Shown: positions 11,199 through 22,823 of the stretch, one piece after another | Numbering within the stretch: position 1 is the first letter of the stretch | How the letters are laid out: every line of letters starts with the position of its first letter | Origin: Thermaerobacter marianensis DSM 12885 | GTDB lineage: Bacteria; Bacillota; Sulfobacillia; Thermaerobacterales; Thermaerobacteraceae | Direction: 5' to 3' | Assembly (NCBI RefSeq): GCF_000184705.1 | Contig: NC_014831.1 | Coordinates: 2,108,001-2,172,000 of the forward strand | Length of the DNA stretch: 64,000 bases | Made by a program: the position numbers and the translations under genes | The notes under the pieces: model-generated | The model's input: only the letters and a program-made list of their open reading frames with translations | What the model was told of the DNA's origin: nothing | Databases searched by the model: none

Positions 11199-11218
11199 CG
11201 AACGTTAACGAACCTTAA
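11199..11218 (+). repeat. Tandem decamer CGAAC(G/C)TTAA upstream of ilv promoter
   Basis: CGAACGTTAA (11199-11208) is followed directly by CGAACCTTAA (11209-11218), then AACAAACAG. One helical turn apart and ending 24 bases before the -35 box, they are placed where an activator or an AT-rich UP element would act. The regulator, if any, is unknown. Confidence 0.5.
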
Positions 11219-11242
11219 ACAAACAGCTTTCGGTGGCATGGG

Positions 11243-11270
11243 TTGACACCCCCGGCCCGGGTGCTATAAT
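11243..11270 (+). promoter_or_regulatory. Sigma-A promoter of the ilv/leu operon
   Basis: Consensus -35 TTGACA (11243-11248) and consensus -10 TATAAT (11265-11270) separated by 16 bases. Transcription should begin near 11277, giving an untranslated leader of about 750 bases before ilvN. A full-consensus promoter fits an operon whose control is mainly by transcript termination. Confidence 0.92.
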
Positions 11271-11328
11271 CCAGGTCAAACCTGACACGGACAGCACCGT
11301 TGCTCACCGGCACAGAGCGGTCCGAGTC

Positions 11329-11520
11329 GGTTTGGGAAGTGCGCCTAGGGTTCCGCATCGCAGGCACCAGGGTTCCTCGACTTGCCGGTCGGGGATCAGA
11401 CCGTGGACGGTCGGGCCGCGCAGCCTGACCGGGGCGATGGTCTGGACCAAGCGGCGCAACCCGCCGGTTGGCCGGCGGGACACCGTGGGGATAAAAGCCC
11501 CGAGCGGCAGGTTCCCAACC
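11329..11520 (+). promoter_or_regulatory. ykkC-family riboswitch aptamer, probably ppGpp type (2a)
   Basis: The conserved ykkC elements appear in order: AAGTGCGCCTAGGGTTCC (11337-11354), GGACCAAGCGG (11444-11454), a P3 hairpin CCCGCC/GGCGGG (11460-11479), then ACACCG and GGGGATAAAAGCCCCGAG (11480-11504). P1 closes by pairing GGTTTGGGAA (11329-11338) with TTCCCAACC (11512-11520), one base bulged. The P2 arm is unusually long, about 88 bases. ykkC RNAs sense guanidine, ppGpp, PRPP or nucleoside diphosphates; the ppGpp subtype is the one known in front of branched-chain amino acid genes, so that ligand is inferred from context. The aptamer shares CCCCGAGCGGC with the terminator, giving an ON switch. 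Confidence 0.82.
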
Positions 11521-11555
11521 CCGGTTGGCGCCTTCGCCGCTCGGGGTGTCTCTTA
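11498..11555 (+). terminator. Intrinsic terminator, expression platform of the ykkC riboswitch
   Basis: CCCCGAGCGGC (11498-11508) pairs with GCCGCTCGGGG (11536-11546), eleven perfect pairs, followed by TGTCTCTTATT. The left arm is part of the conserved AAAAGCCC region of the aptamer, so ligand-bound aptamer and terminator exclude each other. Confidence 0.85.
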
Positions 11556-11614
11556 TTACCGCGCCGGTAGCCGGCGCGTCCCCGGTTTGACAACTTCATC
11601 CGATCAACGGCCGT

Positions 11615-11998
11615 GAAGGGGAGCAGTACCCGGCCGTCCCGGCTGCAGAGAGCCGGTGGCTGGTGCGAACCGGCGCCGCGGACCCGGCGAACTCGCCCCG
11701 GAGCCGTTCCGGTGAAGACCCCGGGCCCGACAGGGCCAGGGATCCTAGCCGGATCCGGCGGCCTCCGTAACCCGGCAGCGCGCCCTGCCGAAAGGTCGCG
11801 GGCGAGCGCGCAAGAAGCCCGCGGGGGACCCCGCGGGCCGTCCGGGAGAGGGGGTCGTCGTTAGCCAAAGGGTGGCGGCATCCGCCACCCGCCGAGGCAG
11901 CTGCCGCGAGGCGGCGGCAACCGGGGTGGTACCGCGAAGAGGGCGCTCTTCGCCTCCGGCCCTGTACGGGTCGAGGGGCGGAGAGCGCCTTTGGTTTT
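11615..11998 (+). promoter_or_regulatory. T-box leader, leucine specifier CUC
   Basis: Stem I features are present: GAGCAGTACC (11621-11630), the AG-rich distal motif GCAGAGAGCCGG (11645-11656) and TGGTGCGAACCGG (11661-11673). The specifier loop GAACTCGCC places CTC, a leucine codon, at 11692-11694. Two perfect stems follow (11819-11839 and 11870-11890), then the T-box antiterminator bulge GGGGTGGTACCGCG (11923-11936). Uncharged tRNA-Leu should stabilise the antiterminator and let transcription into ilvN. It lies directly behind the ykkC terminator, so polymerase must pass both switches. Confidence 0.9.
11942..11998 (+). terminator. T-box-controlled intrinsic terminator
   Basis: GGCGCTCTTCGCC (from 11942) pairs with GGGGCGGAGAGCGCC (ending 11989), followed by TTTGGTTTT. 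It competes with the T-box antiterminator immediately upstream and ends about 27 bases before the ilvN start. Confidence 0.85.
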
Positions 11999-12024
11999 CC
12001 GGCCCCGGAAAGGAGGTGAGACCT

Positions 12025-12705
12025 GTGATCCACGTCATGGTGCTGGCCGCCGACCGGCCCGGGGTCCTCCGCCGCATCCTGGGCGTCTACGAAAGCCGCC
12101 GCTACCAGGTCCGCTCCCTGGCCGCCGGCCCCGCCGGCCCGGCCGGGTTCCTCCGGATCAACCTGGCGCTGGACGAACCGGCCCCCCGGGCCCAACGGCT
12201 GGCCGCCCAGCTGGGGCGCCTGGTCGACGTGGTGAGCGTCGAGGTGGTCGAACCCTCCCGCGCCGTAGGGCGGGAGCTGGCCCTGGTCAAGGTGCTGCTG
12301 GACCATCCCGGCCGGCGGGCCGACGTCCTGCAGGTGGCCCAGGTCTTCCGCGCCCGGGTGGTGGACGTGGCACCCCGGTCGCTGGTGCTCGAGGTGACAG
12401 GCGACCCCGCCAAGGTCGAGGCCTTCCTCAACCTGGCTGAGGACTTCGGCCCGGTGGAGGTCATGCGCACGGGGGTGGCGGCCCTGGGCCGGGGCGGCCG
12501 GCTTCTTCCCGGTGGTGTCACCGGGCCCGGGCCGGACCGGGCCGGCACCACGCCTCCCGCGGATGAAACGGCCCCCGCCGTGGCCGGTGGGGAACCCCAG
12601 GGGGCCGCTACCGCCCACCCCGCGGCTGCAGTCGAGGCGCACGCGTCTGCCGGCGGCCGCATACCAGCCTTCGCTCCGGTGGTGGCGGCCGGCCCGCACC
12701 CGTAG
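12025..12705 (+). CDS. ilvN: Acetolactate synthase small (regulatory) subunit
   Basis: ACT-domain regulatory subunit of acetohydroxyacid synthase; it binds valine-type effectors and stimulates the IlvB catalytic subunit. The family start [18 protein letters not shown] matches the first ACT domain, and [20 protein letters not shown] marks the second half. The core ends near residue 157, as in usual 160-170-residue proteins; about 70 further residues are Ala/Pro/Gly-rich tail. The GTG at 12025 has AGGAGG ten bases upstream. It is the first gene after the tandem leader, while its partner ilvB is the last gene of the operon, an unusual order. Confidence 0.92.
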
Positions 12706-12829: not shown

Positions 12830-13882
<1,053 letters not shown>

Positions 13883-13935: not shown

Positions 13936-15222
13936 ATGGCGGATGGGGTTGGCGAGGTTACGAGGACCCCCGTGACGAGCACCGCCGGAAGCGGCCGCGA
14001 CGGCCGGGGTGCCGGTTCCGACCCCGACCGGGTGCGGATCTTCGACACCACCCTCCGGGACGGCGAGCAGACGCCGGGGGTGGCCCTGACGGTGGACGAG
14101 AAGGTGGAGGTGGCCCGCTGGCTGGCGGCCCTGGGCGTGGACGTCATCGAGGCCGGTTTCCCCGTGGCCTCCGACGGGGAGTTCGAGGCGGTCAGCCGGA
14201 TTGCGGGGGAAATCGAGGGGCCCGTGGTGGCGGCCCTGGCCCGCACCGCGACCCTGGACATCGACCGGGCCTGGGCGGCCATCCGCCATGCCCGGCGGCC
14301 GCGGATCCACGTGTTCGTCTCCACCTCCCCCATCCACCTGGAGGCCATGCTGCGCATGACCGAAGACCAGGTGCTGCGGCTGGTGGAGGAGATGGTGGGC
14401 TACGCCCGGTCCCTCTGCGAGGACGTGGAGTTCTCCGCCCAGGACGCCACCCGCAGCGACGTGGGCTTCCTGGCCGAGGTGACGGCGGCGGCCATCGAGG
14501 CCGGGGCGACCACCATCAACCTGCCCGACACCGTGGGCTACGCCACGCCCTGGACCTACGCCCGCATGTTCCAGGAGGTCATGGCCCGGGTGCCGGGGTC
14601 GGACCGGGTGGTCTTCAGCGCCCACACCCACGACGACCTGGGCATGGCCGTGGCCAACGCCCTGGCGGCTGTGCGGGTGGGGGTCCGCCAGGTGGAGTGC
14701 ACCATCAACGGCATCGGCGAGCGGGCGGGCAACTGCTCGCTGGAGGAAGTGGTCATGGCCCTGGCGGTGCGGGCGGATGTCTTCGGCGCCACCACCGGGG
14801 TGGACACCCGGCAGCTGGTCCCCGCCAGCCAGGTGGTCTCCCGCCTGACGGGGGTGGTCGTTCCGCCCAACAAGGCGGTGGTGGGCGCCAACGCCTTCGC
14901 CCACGAGTCGGGCATCCACCAGGACGGGGTGATCAAGAACCCGCTGACCTACGAGATCATCCGGCCCGAGGCGGTGGGCGCCGGCGGATCCCAGCTGGTG
15001 CTGGGCAAGCACTCGGGGCGCCATGCCGTGCGGGTGGAACTGGAGCGGCTGGGCTTCCACCTGCCCGAGGAAGCCTTCCGCGAGGTCTTCCGCCGCTTCA
15101 AGGCCCTGGCCGACCGCCGGGAGTTCGTCAGCAAGGAGTCCCTGGCGCGGCTGGCCACCGAGGTGCTGGAAGAACGGCAGCAAGAGAGCGGGGCCGCGTC
15201 CCGGCTCGCCCACGGCGCCTGA
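13936..15222 (+). CDS. leuA: 2-isopropylmalate synthase, short form
   Basis: Condenses 2-oxoisovalerate with acetyl-CoA, the committing step of leucine synthesis. Start of the HMGL barrel is RIFDTTLRDGEQTPGV; metal ligands are in SAHTHDDLGMAVAN and catalytic-domain markers in NGIGERAGNCSLEE and NAFAHESGIHQDGV. At 428 residues it stops after the subdomain-II region (FVSKESLARLATEVL), lacking the roughly 120-residue C-terminal LeuA dimer domain through which leucine inhibits the long enzymes. The ATG at 13936 has GGGAGG upstream. A homocitrate or citramalate synthase role is possible for short forms, but the leuCDB neighbours favour leucine. Confidence 0.88.
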   Translation: MADGVGEVTRTPVTSTAGSGRDGRGAGSDPDRVRIFDTTLRDGEQTPGVALTVDEKVEVARWLAALGVDVIEAGFPVASDGEFEAVSRIAGEIEGPVVAALARTATLDIDRAWAAIRHARRPRIHVFVSTSPIHLEAMLRMTEDQVLRLVEEMVGYARSLCEDVEFSAQDATRSDVGFLAEVTAAAIEAGATTINLPDTVGYATPWTYARMFQEVMARVPGSDRVVFSAHTHDDLGMAVANALAAVRVGVRQVECTINGIGERAGNCSLEEVVMALAVRADVFGATTGVDTRQLVPASQVVSRLTGVVVPPNKAVVGANAFAHESGIHQDGVIKNPLTYEIIRPEAVGAGGSQLVLGKHSGRHAVRVELERLGFHLPEEAFREVFRRFKALADRREFVSKESLARLATEVLEERQQESGAASRLAHGA

Positions 15223-15462: not shown

Positions 15463-16764
15463 ATGGCGGCCCAGCGCCCCATGACCATCACCGAGAAGAT
15501 CCTCGCCGCCCACGCCGGCGTCCCGTGGGTCGAACCCGGCCAGCTGGTGGAGGTCCGGGTCGACTTCCTCATGGCCAACGACATCACCGCGCCCCTGGCC
15601 ATCCGGGCCTTTCGGGAGATGGGCGCCACCCGGGTCTTCGACCCCGAGCGGGTGGCCATCGTCCTCTCCCACTTCGCCCCCAGCAAGGACATCCGCAGCG
15701 CCGACCAGTGCAAGGTGGCCCGCGAGTTCGCCCGGGAACAGGGGCTGGTCCACTACTACGAGATGGGCGAGGGCATCGAGCACGCCCTCCTGCCCGACCG
15801 CGGGCTGGTTCTTCCCGGGGAACTGGTGCTGGGCGCCGACTCCCACACCTGCACCTACGGCGCCGTGGGCTGCTTCTCCACCGGCGTGGGCAGCACCGAC
15901 CTGGCCTACGCCATGGCCACCGGCGAGACGTGGCTCAAGGTGCCCGAGACCCTGAAGTTCGTCTACTACAACCGGCTGCAACCGTGGGTCACGGGGAAGG
16001 ACCTGATCCTGTACACCATCGGGCGCATCTCCTGCGACGGCGCCACCTACAAGGCCATGGAGTTCACCGGCGAGGCGCTGGCCGACCTCAGCATGGACGG
16101 GCGGCTGGCCATGGCCAACATGGCCATCGAGGCCGGCGGGAAGAACGGCATCTTCAACCCCGACCAGCGGACCCTGGACTACGTGGCCCAGCGGGCCCAG
16201 CGGCCCTTCAGCCCCGTGTGGTCCGACCCCGACGCCGAGTACGCCGAGGTCTACGAATTCGATGCCGCGCAGATCGAGCCCCAGGTGGCCCTGCCCTGGT
16301 CGCCCGACAACGTGCGGCCCCTGAGCCAGGTGGAGCGGGTGCCCATCGACCAGGTGTTCATCGGCTCCTGCACCAACGGCCGCCTGGACGACCTGCGCAC
16401 CGCCGCCCGCATCCTCCGCGGCCGCCGGGTTCATCCCGAGGTGCGGGCCATCGTGATCCCCGCGTCGCGGGACATCTACCTGCAGGCGCTCAAGGAGGGC
16501 CTCATCGAGATCTTCATGGCCGCGGGGTGCGTGGTCAGCGCCTCCACCTGCGGGCCGTGCCTGGGCGGCCACATGGGCGTGCTGGGCAAGGGCGAGCGCT
16601 GCGTCAGCACCTCCAACCGCAACTTCGTCGGCCGGATGGGCCACCCCGAATCGGAGTCGTACCTGGCCAATCCGGCGGTGGCCGCGGCCTCGGCGGTGGC
16701 GGGCCGGCTCTGCCATCCGGAAGAACTCGGCATCCGGTACGAAGAGGTGGCCGGGGTGGCGTGA
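15463..16764 (+). CDS. leuC: 3-isopropylmalate dehydratase large subunit
   Basis: Aconitase-family subunit carrying the [4Fe-4S] cluster; with LeuD it interconverts 2- and 3-isopropylmalate. Cluster cysteines lie in FIGSCTNGR and in [36 protein letters not shown]-type sequence around 15830 is the active-site loop. At 433 residues it belongs to the short LeuC/HacA group that pairs with a LeuD of about 165-175 residues, as here. The ATG at 15463 has AAAGGAGG eight bases upstream. Confidence 0.95.
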
Positions 16765-16902: not shown

Positions 16903-16927
16903 CATGAAGGATGAGGAGGTGGCGGCC

Positions 16928-17452
16928 GTGGGCCGCGTGTGGAAGTACGGCGACGACGTCAACACCGACGTGATCATCCCGGCGCGATACCTGTTCACCA
17001 CGGATCCGGCGGAGCTGGCGGCCCACTGCATGGAGGACCTGGACCCCAGTTTCGCCGCCAACGTCCGGCCCGGCGACGTCATCGTGGCCGGCCGCAACTT
17101 CGGCTGCGGTTCGTCCCGTGAACACGCCCCCGTCGCCATCCGGGCGGCCGGGGTGGCGTGCGTCATCGCCGCGTCCTTTGCGCGGATCTTCTACCGCAAC
17201 GCCATCAACGTGGGCCTGCCGATCCTGGAGTGTCCGGAGGCGGTGGCCGCCCTGGAGAACGGCGAGGAAGTGGAGGTCGACGTGGCGGCCGGCACCATCC
17301 GGCGGGTGGCCACGGGGGAAACCTTCCAGGCGGCCCCCTTCCCGCCGTTCATGCAGGAGATCCTGCGGTGCGGCGGGCTGGTGGAGTACGCCCGGCGGAA
17401 GCTGGCGGCGGCCGCGGCCGGGGGAACCGGCGGGACGGAGGGGGCACGGTGA
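16928..17452 (+). CDS. leuD: 3-isopropylmalate dehydratase small subunit
   Basis: Swivel subunit of isopropylmalate isomerase. It opens with [20 protein letters not shown] and carries the substrate-binding [14 protein letters not shown]. The 174-residue length matches the short LeuD type that partners LeuC here. The GTG at 16928 is preferred since GAGGAGG stands eight bases upstream; the in-frame ATG 24 bases earlier has no ribosome binding site. The last 20 residues are Ala/Gly-rich. Confidence 0.94.
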
Positions 17453-17596: not shown

Positions 17597-19099
17597 ATGA
17601 CGTACCGCATCGCCGTCCTGCCCGGGGACGGCATCGGCCCCGAGGTGACGCGGGAAGCCGTGCGGGTGCTGGAGGCGGTGGGGGCGGCGGCCGGCATCCG
17701 CTTCGAGTTCGCCGAGGCGCCCGTCGGCGGTGCCGCCGTCGATGCCACCGGCGACCCCTTCCCGCCCGAGACCGAGCAGCTGTGCATGGCCGCCGACGCT
17801 ATCCTCCTGGGCGCGGTGGGAGGCCCCCGCTGGGACCGCGAGCCGGTTCCCCGCCGGCCGGAGTCGGGCCTGCTGCGGCTGCGCAAGGCCGTGGGCGCCT
17901 ACGCCAACCTGCGGCCGGTGCGGGTTCATCCGGCCCTGGCGGGGCGCGGCCCCCTGCGCCCGGAGGTGGTGGGCGGCGGCGTTGACATCCTGATCGTCCG
18001 CGAGCTCACCGGCGGCCTCTACTACGGCGAGCGCGGCGTGCAGCAGGAGCCCTTCGGCGAGCGGGCCTATGACACCATGGTCTACACCACGCCCGAGATC
18101 GAGCGGATCGTGCGCATGGCTTTCCAGCTGGCCCGGGGCCGGCGGCGGCGGGTGATCTCCGTCGACAAGAGCAATGTGCTGGAGACCTCGCGCCTCTGGC
18201 GCCGGGTGACCGAAGCCGTGGCGGAGGACTTCCCCGACGTGGAGCTGGAGCACATGCTGGTGGACAACGCCGCCATGCAGCTGGTCCGCAACCCCCAGCG
18301 CTTCGACGTGCTGGTGACCGAGAACACCTTCGGCGACATCCTGAGCGATCTGGGCGCGGCCCTGGCCGGCTCCCTGGGGCTCCTGCCCTCGGCCAGCCTG
18401 GGGCTGCCGGGCCGGCCGCCGCTGTTCGAGCCCGTTCACGGCTCGGCGCCGGACATCGCGGGCCGGGGGATCGCCAACCCGCTGGGCGCCATCGCCTCGG
18501 CGGCGATGATGCTCCGTCACGCCTTCGGCCTCCAGCGGGAGGCCCAGGCGGTCGAGGAGGCCATCGACGACCTGCTGGCCGCGGGGCCGTGGACGCCCGA
18601 CATCGCACCGCCCGGCGCCCCGGTGGCCAGCACAGAAGACGTGGGACGGGCCATCGCCCGGCGGGTCCGGGAGCGGCTGGCCCCCGGGCCGCTGGAGCCG
18701 CTGGGGCCGGTGGCGGGGCGGGACGGCCGGGGCACGCAGGACGGCCGCGGCTCCCAGGATGGCAGCGGGCTCGCCGGCGATCCGGTGGCGGCGGTGTGGA
18801 TCGCCGGCGAATACGGCTTCCGACCGCTTCCTCCGGACGAACCGGCCCCGCCGGCCGCGGCGCCCGCGGCCACCGGCACGGTGCGCGCCGGTGACCCTGC
18901 GACCGGCGCATCCCGCGACGCCATGACCCCAGACGCCCTGGCCAACGGTCCGACCGCCGCCGGCGGGACCGCCGCCGACACGGCCACCGGCACCAACGGC
19001 ACCGCGACCCGGAGCGAGAGTCCTGTCAGGACGCCTGCGCGCCGGGGCACCGGAGCGGGCACCACCCGCCGCCGGGCCCGGGCTCGGAAGGGAGCGTGA
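17597..19099 (+). CDS. leuB: 3-isopropylmalate dehydrogenase with C-terminal extension
   Basis: Oxidative decarboxylation of 3-isopropylmalate with NAD+. Family motifs: [17 protein letters not shown] at the start, [13 protein letters not shown], the catalytic-Lys region [17 protein letters not shown], metal-binding [13 protein letters not shown], and the NAD-binding [18 protein letters not shown]. The enzyme proper ends near residue 364; a further 136 residues rich in Ala, Thr, Gly and Pro follow, ending in [10 protein letters not shown]. The tail has no recognised domain. The ATG at 17597 starts the conserved [12 protein letters not shown]. Its stop overlaps the ilvD GTG. Confidence 0.93.
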
Positions 19100-20898
19100 A
19101 TCGGGTGACCTTCCAACAGGGGACCACGGCGGAGAGGGCGACCCAGGCGGAGGCTACCAAGACGGTGCCCCCTGTGACGGGTACGGGGACGAACGGCTTC
19201 GCCGCCCCCCTCCGCAGCCGGGAGGTGGTGGAGGGGTTCCACCGCGCCCCCCACCGCTCCTTGTTCAAGGCCATGGGCTACACCGACGAGGAACTGCGCC
19301 GGCCGCTGATCGGGGTGATGAACAGCCGCAACGAGATCATCCCCGGCCACGTGCACCTGGACAACATCGCCCGGGCGGTCTGCGACGGCATCCGCATGGC
19401 CGGCGGCACGCCGATCCAGTTCGGCGTCATCGGGGTCGACGACGGCATCGCCATGGGCCACCGCGGCATGCGCTTCTCTCTGCCCAGCCGCGAGCTGATC
19501 GCCGACTCCATCGAGACGGTGACGGAGGCCCACCAGCTGGACGGCCTGGTGCTGATCCCCAACTGCGACAAGATCACGCCGGGGATGCTCATGGCCGCAG
19601 CCCGCCTGAACCTGCCCACGGTGGTCGTCAGCGGCGGGCCCATGATGGCCGGCAACGTCTACGGGCGGGCGGTCAACCTGGCCACGGTGTTCGAGGGCGT
19701 GGGCGCCTTCCAGGCCGGGCGCATCACCGCCGAGGAACTGTTCGAGCTGGAGGAAGCAGCCTGCCCCACCTGCGGCTCGTGCTCCGGCATGTTCACCGCC
19801 AACTCGATGAACTGCCTGACCGAGGCCATCGGCCTGGGGCTCCCCGGCAACGGCACCATCCCGGCGGTGGAAGCCGCCCGGCTGCGGCTGGCCAAGCAGG
19901 CCGGCATGCAGGTGATGGAGCTGGTGCGCCGGGGCCTGCGCGCCCGGGACATCCTGACCGAGGCCGCCTTCCGCAACGCCCTGGCCGTCGACATGGCCCT
20001 GGGCTGTTCGACCAACACCGTGTTGCACCTGCTGGCCATCGCCCACGAGGCGGGACTGGGGGACGTGATCACCCTGGACCTGATCGACGAGGTGAGCCGC
20101 TGCACGCCCCAGCTCTGCAAGCTGGCCCCCGCCGGTCCCCACCACATCCAGGACCTGCACCAGGCCGGCGGCATCCAGGCGGTGCTGGCCGAGCTGCTGC
20201 GGGGCGGGCACATCGACGGCTCGGTCCTGACGGTGACGGGCCGGACCGTGGCCGAGAACCTGGCCGCCGCCGAGCGGCGCATCCTCCGGGCCCGCGCCTG
20301 GCGCTCCGACGTCATCCGGCCCATCGAGGAACCCCACAGCCCCGAGGGCGGCCTGGCCGTTCTGCGCGGCAACCTGGCTCCCGACGGCGCCGTGGTGAAG
20401 CAAGGTGCGGTGGACCCGGCCATGCTGCGCCACCGCGGCCCGGCCCGGGTCTTTGACAGCGAGGAAGATGCCGCCGCCGCCATCCGCCAGGGCCGCATCC
20501 GTCCCGGGGACGTGGTGGTGATCCGCTACGAGGGGCCGCGAGGCGGGCCGGGCATGCGGGAGATGCTGGCCATCACCGCCGCCCTGGCCGGCATGGGCCT
20601 GGACCGGGAGGTCGCCCTGATCACCGACGGGCGCTTCTCGGGCGCCACCCGCGGCGCCTCCATCGGCCACGTCTCGCCGGAAGCCGCCGCCGGCGGCCCC
20701 ATCGCCCTGGTGGAGGACGGCGACGAGATCGAGATCGACATCCCCGGCCGGCGTCTGGAGCTGCGGGTTCCTCCGGACGAACTGGCCCGCCGCCGCGAGC
20801 GCTGGCAGCCCCGGCCCCCGCGGGAAACCCGGGGCTATCTGGCCCGCTACGCCCGGGCGGTGACGTCAGCGAACACGGGCGCGGTGCTGATGGGCTGA
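19096..20898 (+). CDS. ilvD: Dihydroxy-acid dehydratase
   Basis: Iron-sulfur enzyme dehydrating 2,3-dihydroxy-isovalerate and -methylvalerate to the 2-oxo acids. Cluster and metal ligands sit in [12 protein letters not shown] and [40 protein letters not shown] near the C-terminus is the family hallmark. At 600 residues it is slightly longer than usual because of about 35 low-complexity residues ahead of [13 protein letters not shown]. The GTG at 19096 overlaps the leuB stop (GTGA) with GGAAGGGAG upstream, so translation is probably coupled; a second GTG three codons on is an alternative. Confidence 0.95.
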
Positions 20899-20927: not shown

Positions 20928-22823
20928 GTGTCCCAGCCGGCGAAGCAAGCCACTGCCACTGCCACCGTCACCGCCGCAGGCGGGCCCCCACCGGCGGCCC
21001 GGCCTCCGTCCACACCACCGCACGCCATGACCGGTGCCGGGCTGAGGCCGGGTACCGAGACCCCGCCGGTCAACCGGCGTGGGCCGATGAGCGGTGCCGA
21101 CGTGGTGGTCCAGGTCCTGCTGGAACAAGGTGTGGAGTGGGTGTTCGGCATCCCGGGCGGTGCCGTGCTGCCCCTCTACGACGCCCTGTATGGCGCTCCC
21201 ATCCGCCACGTCCTGGCCCGGCACGAGCAGGGTGCCGCCCTGGCTGCCGACGGTTACGCCCGGGCCAGCGGGCGGGTCGGGGTGTGCATCGCGACCTCCG
21301 GCCCCGGGGCCACCAACCTGATCACGGGCCTGGCCACCTCCTACCTGGATTCGGTACCCGTGGTGGCCATCACCGGCAACGTGGGGCGAGCGTTCCTCGG
21401 CACCGACGCCTTCCAGGAGGCGGACACCTTCGGTGTCAGCATGCCGGTGACCAAGCACAACTACCTGGTGCTGGACCCCGAAGAGCTCCCCGCCATCCTG
21501 CGGGAGGCCTTCGCCGTGGCTGCGTCCGGCCGGCCCGGGCCGGTGCTGGTGGACATCCCCAAGGACATCTTCACGGCCACCATCTCCACTGGGGCCTGGG
21601 ACCGGCCGTTGCGGCGTTCGGTATCTTGTTTCGGGCGCACCGCCGCGGATTCTGGGACGCCGCACATCCCCGACCTCCCTGGGCGCTCGCACCTCACCGG
21701 CCGCCTGGAAGAGGCCGCCAGGCTCATCGCCCGGGCCCGCCAGCCCGTGCTCTATGCCGGGGGCGGGGTGATCGTCGCCGGCGCCGCCGAGGCCCTGCGC
21801 CGGCTGGCGGAACAGGCGGTTCTTCCGACCACCACCACCCTCATGGCCCTGGGGGCCATGCCCGGCGACCACCCCCTCTTCCTCGGCATGCCCGGCATGC
21901 ACGGGACCTACGCCGCCAACATGGCCCTGACGGAGACCGACTGCCTGGTCGCCGTCGGCGCCCGCTTCGACGACCGGGTCACCGGCAAGGTGTCGGCCTT
22001 CGCCCCCGATGCCGCCATCATCCACATCGACGTCGACGCCGCGGAACTGGGGAAGGTCAAGGCGCCGCGGGTGGCCATCCCCGCCGACGCCCGGGAGGGG
22101 CTGGAAGCCCTGCGGGAGGCCTTGGGCCGGGTTCCTCCGGACGAGTGGGCCGACCGCAGCCCGTGGCTCGAGCGCGTGAACGGCTGGAAGCGGGACCACC
22201 CCTACCGGTACGACCGGGAGCGCGCCCGCCGGGAGCTGCTTCCCCAGGCGGTGATCGAGGAACTGGAGCGGGCCACGGGCGGTGACGCCCTCGTGGTCAC
22301 CGGCGTCGGCCAGCACCAGATGTGGGCGGCCATGTTCTACCGCTACCGGCGGCCCCGCCAGTTCCTGACCTCCGGGGGCCTGGGGACCATGGGGTACGGC
22401 CTCCCCGCGGCCATCGGCGCCCAGCTAGCCCGGCCGGACGCCCGGGTGCTGTGCATCGACGGCGACGGCAGCTTCCAGATGAACGTCCAGGAGCTGTCGA
22501 CCCTGGCCGAGCTAGGGTTACCGGTGAAAGTGTTCATTATTAATAACCGCGCCCACGGCATGGTGCGGCAGTGGCAGGACCTGTTCTACGGGCAGCGGCT
22601 GTCGGCCAGCGTCTTCGAGCACCAGCCGGACTTCGTCAAGCTGGCCGAGGCCTACGGCATCGCCGCCTTCCGGATCACCCACCCGGACGAACTGGCCGGG
22701 ACGGTGCGCGAGGCGCTGGCCCGCCCGGGGCCGGTGGTGGTGGACTGCGTCGTGCGGCAGGAGGAGAACGTGCTGCCGATGGTGCCGCCGGGGGCGGCGC
22801 TGCGGGAGATGATCGTGGGGTAG
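20928..22823 (+). CDS. ilvB: Acetolactate synthase large (catalytic) subunit
   Basis: ThDP-dependent enzyme making acetolactate from pyruvate and acetohydroxybutyrate from pyruvate plus 2-oxobutyrate. Catalytic Glu100 is in RHEQGAALAADGYAR; the FAD-binding central domain follows, and the ThDP motif GDGSFQMNVQELSTLAELGL is in the C-terminal domain with HGMVRQWQDLFYGQRLS after it. The first 50 residues are an Ala/Pro/Thr-rich extension before MSGADVVVQVLL; an internal ATG at that point is a possible alternative start, but GGAGGGACGGAGC favours the GTG at 20928. It is the last gene of the operon and its stop codon lies inside a terminator-like hairpin. Confidence 0.95.
   Translation: MSQPAKQATATATVTAAGGPPPAARPPSTPPHAMTGAGLRPGTETPPVNRRGPMSGADVVVQVLLEQGVEWVFGIPGGAVLPLYDALYGAPIRHVLARHEQGAALAADGYARASGRVGVCIATSGPGATNLITGLATSYLDSVPVVAITGNVGRAFLGTDAFQEADTFGVSMPVTKHNYLVLDPEELPAILREAFAVAASGRPGPVLVDIPKDIFTATISTGAWDRPLRRSVSCFGRTAADSGTPHIPDLPGRSHLTGRLEEAARLIARARQPVLYAGGGVIVAGAAEALRRLAEQAVLPTTTTLMALGAMPGDHPLFLGMPGMHGTYAANMALTETDCLVAVGARFDDRVTGKVSAFAPDAAIIHIDVDAAELGKVKAPRVAIPADAREGLEALREALGRVPPDEWADRSPWLERVNGWKRDHPYRYDRERARRELLPQAVIEELERATGGDALVVTGVGQHQMWAAMFYRYRRPRQFLTSGGLGTMGYGLPAAIGAQLARPDARVLCIDGDGSFQMNVQELSTLAELGLPVKVFIINNRAHGMVRQWQDLFYGQRLSASVFEHQPDFVKLAEAYGIAAFRITHPDELAGTVREALARPGPVVVDCVVRQEENVLPMVPPGAALREMIVG

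Follow-up and report, generated by a model that had tools for sequence, protein, structure and literature searches.

A probable ppGpp-type ykkC-scaffold aptamer and a leucine T-box in tandem ahead of the eight-gene ilv/leu operon of Thermaerobacter marianensis

The T-box of the Bacillus subtilis ilv-leu operon carries a CUC specifier, as does the leader described here, and to our knowledge no ykkC aptamer stands ahead of it. The closest described systems are tandems of a ppGpp riboswitch and a leucine T-box, which have been published as predicted AND gates (accessible text of PMC9481103 and PMC5912903); the former lists 15 ppGpp/T-box cases in the order found here and 16 in the reverse order. 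Three features bear on the ligand type of a ykkC-scaffold aptamer according to the accessible sections of PMC6031431: C75 pairs with the guanine of ppGpp, position 96 is a G in PRPP aptamers and A, C, U or nothing in ppGpp aptamers, and the P0 region is missing from guanidine-I aptamers.

Here, we analysed a 64-kb stretch (the window) of the T. marianensis genome, which comprises 2,844,696 bases in one contig. The sequence-only reading had claimed for this locus a consensus promoter, a ykkC-class aptamer with a competing terminator, a leucine T-box with a second terminator, and eight ilv/leu genes, and this layout was borne out in each of its parts (Table 1). The TTGACA-16-TATAAT promoter gives 12/12 matches, against a mean of 0.1 in shuffles, and is kept in five genomes; the aptamer and its terminator overlap; the T-box is supported by its CUC (Leu) specifier, its T-box motif and a matching tRNA-Leu, and is followed by terminator 2; and all eight genes are named by NCBIfam models. 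All four examined genomes of the genus have this leader ahead of ilvN, as does G083, a genome of the sister genus. Save for a few changes, these five aligned leaders keep the ligand pocket, the P0 strands, the arms of terminator 1, the specifier and the T-box motif; variation is free in the P2 arm and in the central part of the T-box. Each half of the leader also folds better than 100/100 shuffles (z -4.8 and -5.6). At gathering level, Rfam returned zero matches across the 64-kb window; a permissive search of positions 11200-12050 additionally returned weak matches to miRNA, sRNA and other non-riboswitch families, which we dismissed as chance.

Table 1. Features of the ilv/leu leader and operon (window positions) and, in the last row, of a leuS leader outside the window.
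Feature	Position	Strand	Evidence or remark
Conserved motif TTAACGAACCTTAA 5' of the promoter; possible operator or UP-like element	11205..11218	+	
Sigma-70 type promoter TTGACA-16-TATAAT, TG before the -10	11243..11270	+	12/12 matches
Leader hairpin immediately 5' of P0	11276..11334	+	predicted fold
ykkC-scaffold aptamer, ppGpp (2a) type by sequence	11331..11521	+	R1 92.2, R2 65.9, RF00442 49.1 bits
P0 5' strand GGGAA; partner UUCCC 11512-11516	11334..11338	+	complementarity; up to 9 bp if one bulge is allowed
Expanded P2 arm, 84 nt between two conserved strands	11355..11438	+	
C75 equivalent	11481..11481	+	placed via ACAC motif
A at the G96 equivalent of PRPP aptamers; GAG replaces GGG/AGG	11503..11503	+	comparison of 73 matches
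Terminator 1, overlapping P4 and P0 3' strands; imperfect U-rich tail	11497..11556	+	
T-box Stem I	11604..11709	+	RF00230 53.9 bits, E 7.7e-11, gathering 93
Specifier CUC (Leu), context GAA-CUC-GCC	11692..11694	+	CUC in 5/5 genomes
T-box motif GGGGUGGUACCGCG and antiterminator	11923..11963	+	RF00230 second piece 11900-11957, 20.9 bits
Terminator 2 of the T-box, tail UUUGGUUUU	about 11942..11998	+	hairpin predicted very stable
ilvN, acetolactate synthase small subunit, GTG start; AAGGAGGTG at about 12010-12018	12025..12705	+	NF008864 133.2 bits
ilvC	12830..13882	+	NF004017 537.7 bits
leuA without C-terminal LeuA_dimer domain	13936..15222	+	NF002086 606 bits, to position 390 of 516
leuC	15463..16764	+	TIGR02083 648.2 bits
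leuD	16904..17452	+	TIGR02084 246.9 bits
leuB, C-terminal extension past the family model	17597..19099	+	TIGR00169 471.8 bits, residues 4-352
ilvD	19096..20898	+	TIGR00110 794.2 bits
ilvB	20928..22823	+	TIGR00118 761 bits
leuS leader with tRNA-Ala(GGC)	L001:1377-1880 (G000:C1 about 2654457-2654960)	minus	

The aptamer, the only ykkC-scaffold match in the whole genome, appears to belong to the ppGpp subclass, as the sequence-only reading had proposed; the assignment is supported by the pocket nucleotides, by a held-out subclass model, by the gene context across the class and by the presence of a rel gene. Judged from sequence, all four marks of subtype 2a are found, namely the scaffold, a C at 75, no G at 96 and the P0 helix, where in the five genomes compared a single A-to-G change (in G083) preserves a G-U pair. 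The marks of the PRPP subtype (2b) are lacking, with no G96 and no purine genes in the operon, and the guanidine pocket ACACGG is replaced by ACACCG. The proposed check against subclass models had a divided outcome: Rfam's single lumped model stayed below its cut-off, whereas a ppGpp-type model matched clearly. In particular, Guanidine-I (RF00442) was the only ykkC-scaffold Rfam family reported in 11200-12050, and its match at 11334-11506 (49.1 bits, E 1.4e-7) lies below the gathering score of 63. The subclass models R1 (ppGpp-type) and R2 (PRPP-type) are covariance models built in this analysis, not published ones. The training set of R1 comprised 45 of 54 ppGpp-type aptamers of the class, without the held-out loci L009 and L027, the irregular L220, L246 and L247, and four aptamers longer than 150 nt, and that of R2 comprised 11 of 13 PRPP-type aptamers, without L242 and L255. 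With the window aptamer and its family excluded from training, R1 gave 92.2 bits and R2 65.9 bits. Among the controls, R1 gave four PRPP-type aptamers 61.4-67.7 bits and five guanidine-type aptamers 26-40.2 bits, while R2 gave the same four PRPP-type aptamers 98.8-133.8 bits, though it had been trained on them. Three congeners with longer P2 arms scored 67.2-74.3 bits with R1, near the PRPP-type controls on that model, yet above their own R2 scores of 23.7-48.8 bits. In the class survey, whose filters were stricter, the Guanidine-I model found no match in these congener genomes (G023, G043 and G066), and their leaders were located by DNA similarity instead.

It seems to us extremely improbable that the ligand of the aptamer is PRPP, guanidine or a nucleoside diphosphate rather than ppGpp, a reading that would leave the T-box unchanged. 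Such a reading could draw on the near identity of ykkC scaffolds between ligand types, on the placement of this aptamer under Guanidine-I by Rfam and on the appreciable score that the PRPP-type model still yields. However, that score is 26 bits lower than the ppGpp-type one, the pocket lacks ACACGG and carries A rather than G at 96 and C rather than U at 75, and the aptamer precedes branched-chain genes.

The gene context of the ppGpp type was established by a survey of the class, in which the pocket of each of 73 Guanidine-I model matches in 101 genomes was read by a rule set down after part of the matches had been seen, though in line with the published rule. This gave 54 ppGpp-type pockets, 13 PRPP-type pockets and six with the guanidine motif. 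Of the ppGpp-type aptamers, 30/54 are followed by ilv, leu or ilvE genes and 0/54 by the purine genes sought; of the PRPP-type ones, 12/13 are followed by a gene for a xanthine/uracil permease or adenylosuccinate lyase and 0/13 by branched-chain genes; two of the six aptamers with the guanidine motif precede DUF1989 genes. The difference in branched-chain context (30/54 vs 0/13) has a Fisher p of 2.7e-4, to be read with the caveat that related genomes are not independent. One PRPP-type pocket (L242, G082:C1:999873-999977) lies upstream of a glutamate synthase gene, and the rule that links pocket to gene is thus not perfect. Gene labels came from tblastn with window and locus proteins, which left 12 of the 54 ppGpp-type matches unlabelled. 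Pfam analysis of nine of these gave part of a glutamate synthase (L220), weak glutamine amidotransferase matches (L234, L235), Pyr_redox (L243, L249, L252), TrmK (L216) and DUFs (L230, L240); the gene-context search for L025 gave no match, and L024 and L225 lay outside the Pfam set.

The tandem arrangement itself is common in the class. A T-box with the conserved motif follows 237-420 nt downstream in 16 of the 73 matches (13 found by the Rfam model, three by the motif), and all 16 combine a ppGpp-type pocket with a position ahead of branched-chain genes. No T-box motif occurs within 900 nt of the 19 PRPP- or guanidine-type matches. The T-box model search covered 71/73 matches, L256 and L257 being checked by motif only, and we discarded a T-box-like motif located 822 nt beyond L227, as the Rfam scan of that locus contained no T-box. 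When the three congeners are added, the specifiers of the 19 tandems, read by eye, are CUC in 16 and GUC (Val) in three. In the latter (L036, L038 and L223), a ppGpp-type aptamer is followed by a GUC T-box ahead of ilvE or ilvN-ilvC; the T-box partner can therefore be Val or Leu, and the published table, in the accessible text of PMC9481103, pairs ppGpp with T box Leu only.

Terminator 1 forms by pairing 11498-11508 with 11536-11546 in an 11-bp, GC-rich stem that is predicted in 5/5 genomes and is followed by an imperfect U-tract (UGUCUCUUAUU). Because this stem consumes the P4 3' strand, and the terminator contains the P0 3' strand, aptamer and terminator are mutually exclusive. The predicted energies are -142.3 kcal/mol for the aptamer fold and -151.3 kcal/mol for the terminator fold; with the aptamer thus 9 kcal/mol less stable in silico, kinetics and ligand would have to close the gap. 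For the Cba ppGpp riboswitch, the accessible part of PMC10687018 describes probing of ppGpp stabilising the terminal aptamer helix against the terminator. The P2 arm had been described as far longer than usual, at about 88 bases; it is indeed unusually long, but measures 84 nt. The median P2 length is 22 nt (59 measurable of 76 aptamers), the sister-genus aptamer has 23 nt and the congeners 116, 117 and 153 nt. With lengths this hypervariable inside one genus, the size of P2 says little about function, and we dropped it as a functional sign. The ppGpp-type aptamer L241, from a genome of a different family (G070), also has a long P2 arm (88 nt), apparently independently.

Downstream, UGGU at 11927-11930 complements the A73-CCA end of tRNA-Leu, and the genome encodes a tRNA-Leu(GAG) with an A73 discriminator. 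Stem I misses the Rfam gathering score (53.9 vs 93 bits), which says little here, since none of the ten T-box matches in the genome (E up to 0.001) reaches it. Terminator 2 is a T-box terminator of the usual kind. In one congener (L043 about 2214-2240, G066), the T-box terminator lacks the U-run present in the others. The genome further contains one rel/spoT homologue, whose 812-bit match covers positions 1-686 of 687, and a search of the genome for CodY (PF06018) gave no match.

Taken with this anatomy and its conservation, we infer a start site, a ligand, an ON direction for each switch and a joint behaviour that would make the leader a two-step transcription attenuator, allowing full transcription of the ilv/leu operon only when high ppGpp and uncharged tRNA-Leu coincide; we put the probability of this reading at roughly 0.85. 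Transcription would start near 11277. When ppGpp is lacking, terminator 1 would capture the P4 and P0 3' strands and the polymerase would stop near 11550, whereas with ppGpp bound, P0 and P4 would keep their 3' strands, terminator 1 would be blocked and transcription would enter the T-box. There, the second stop would form by default; an uncharged tRNA-Leu(GAG) paired to the CUC specifier would prevent it by using its free A73-CCA end to stabilise the antiterminator. The AND logic, also put forward in the sequence-only reading, would arise because two separate terminators stand in series.

Two switches in series might nevertheless fall short of a true AND gate if one stop were leaky or dominant, giving graded or single-input output; for example, the T-box could set the output while ppGpp only tunes it. 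The imperfect U-tract of terminator 1 fits such behaviour, as does the correlation of the two inputs, since leucine starvation raises ppGpp and uncharged tRNA-Leu together. We nonetheless judge it rather unlikely, given a terminator 1 stem of 11 GC-rich base pairs that is predicted in all five genomes and a T-box terminator hairpin that is predicted to be very stable.

The region ahead of the aptamer holds two further conserved elements. The pattern TTAANNAACCTTAA of the upstream motif was found in 5/5 aligned leaders and, even if one mismatch is tolerated, occurs only once in the genome. The leader hairpin has a basal stem predicted in 5/5 genomes, with differing loop lengths, and an equally good fold is reached by 7/500 shuffles of the window sequence. 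Its 3' foot (11329-11334) reaches into the 5' strand of the extended P0. This shared sequence, together with the recurrent basal stem and variable loop, might suggest that the hairpin is a third element, in competition with the extended P0 and determining the ppGpp threshold, so that a three-layer leader would mask the extended-P0 5' strand, thereby tune the ppGpp switch and through it gate the leucine T-box. If so, nascent RNA folding, ppGpp and tRNA-Leu charging would be read in sequence. We regard this as distinctly doubtful: the hairpin takes only one pair from the core P0 (-141.5 vs -142.3 kcal/mol) and may merely stack on P0 or shield the 5' end, and its stem is nearly invariant in the five genomes, leaving no covariation to speak of. 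The near compatibility with the core P0 in particular weakened its candidacy as a P0 blocker, and the two-step attenuator remains the preferred reading.

The operon itself offers a reason why control by the leader could carry weight. Apart from HMGL-like and HCS_D2, the leuA product has no Pfam domain, and it ends before LeuA_dimer, the leucine feedback domain. As the operon's leuA thus lacks this domain, RNA control may matter more here. The sole LeuA_dimer (PF08502) match in the genome lies elsewhere (C1:1715169-1715543).

A separate observation concerns the leuS gene, outside the window: within its Leu (CUC) T-box leader, after Stem I and ahead of the antiterminator, lies a complete tRNA-Ala(GGC) (Table 1). 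Across four genomes of the genus (including L093, L094 and L095), this embedded tRNA shows no difference over 74 nt, and the preceding sequence varies. A pattern scan of the genome collection returned at least 120 stretches, of which 80 loci (L096-L175) were analysed. Among these listed matches, tRNA-Ala(GGC) stands directly 5' of the T-box motif in 66/80, the other 14 being chance matches or not judgeable. The 66 listed loci show a GAACTC specifier motif upstream in 62 cases (two of the other four end at a contig edge) and leuS within 1 kb downstream in 52; L108 (Pseudonocardia), with neither the motif nor leuS, is probably a chance match. By record titles, the phyla among the matches listed include Bacillota, Chloroflexota, Armatimonadota, Coprothermobacterota and Caldisericota. 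In the class sample, the pattern was found in 15/101 genomes and a reversed control pattern in none.

Alanyl-tRNA synthetase needs G3:U70. All 66 listed embedded tRNAs have G3:U70 and A73, and CCA is encoded in 49 of them. The free-standing tRNA-Ala(GGC) of this genome (L081:2188-2264, G000:C1:16087-16163) has G3:C70 instead, and the T-box-embedded copy may therefore be the working one. A non-exhaustive single-tRNA query of six further genomes matched four, in each of which the sole tRNA-Ala(GGC) seen was the embedded one. The regulatory leader may well serve as a tRNA precursor too, one that would be produced even under attenuation of leuS. We found no report of an embedded tRNA-Ala in a leuS leader in the open-licence literature searched, nor in the accessible part of PMC2494555; these leaders are potentially more novel than the ilv/leu tandem leader and merit a study of their own.

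With respect to known systems, the leader shares its scaffold with the Guanidine-I riboswitch (RF00442) but lacks the ACACGG/GGGAG pocket and has P0 strands; it shares scaffold, P0 helix and C75 with the PRPP riboswitch of ykkC subtype 2b but differs in its missing G96 and in an operon devoid of purine genes. For the AND gate, so far a prediction in the accessible literature, it provides a compact test object in a single complete genome with one ykkC-scaffold match. It most resembles the published ppGpp-T box(Leu) gate (PMC5912903, PMC9481103), with which, as far as the accessible text of these sources describes it, it agrees in elements, order, separate expression platforms and branched-chain genes, and from which it differs in its expanded P2, in a conserved hairpin before P0 and in being very GC-rich. 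As both the order and the AND logic have already been published, the T. marianensis leader represents a further example of this control rather than a new kind.
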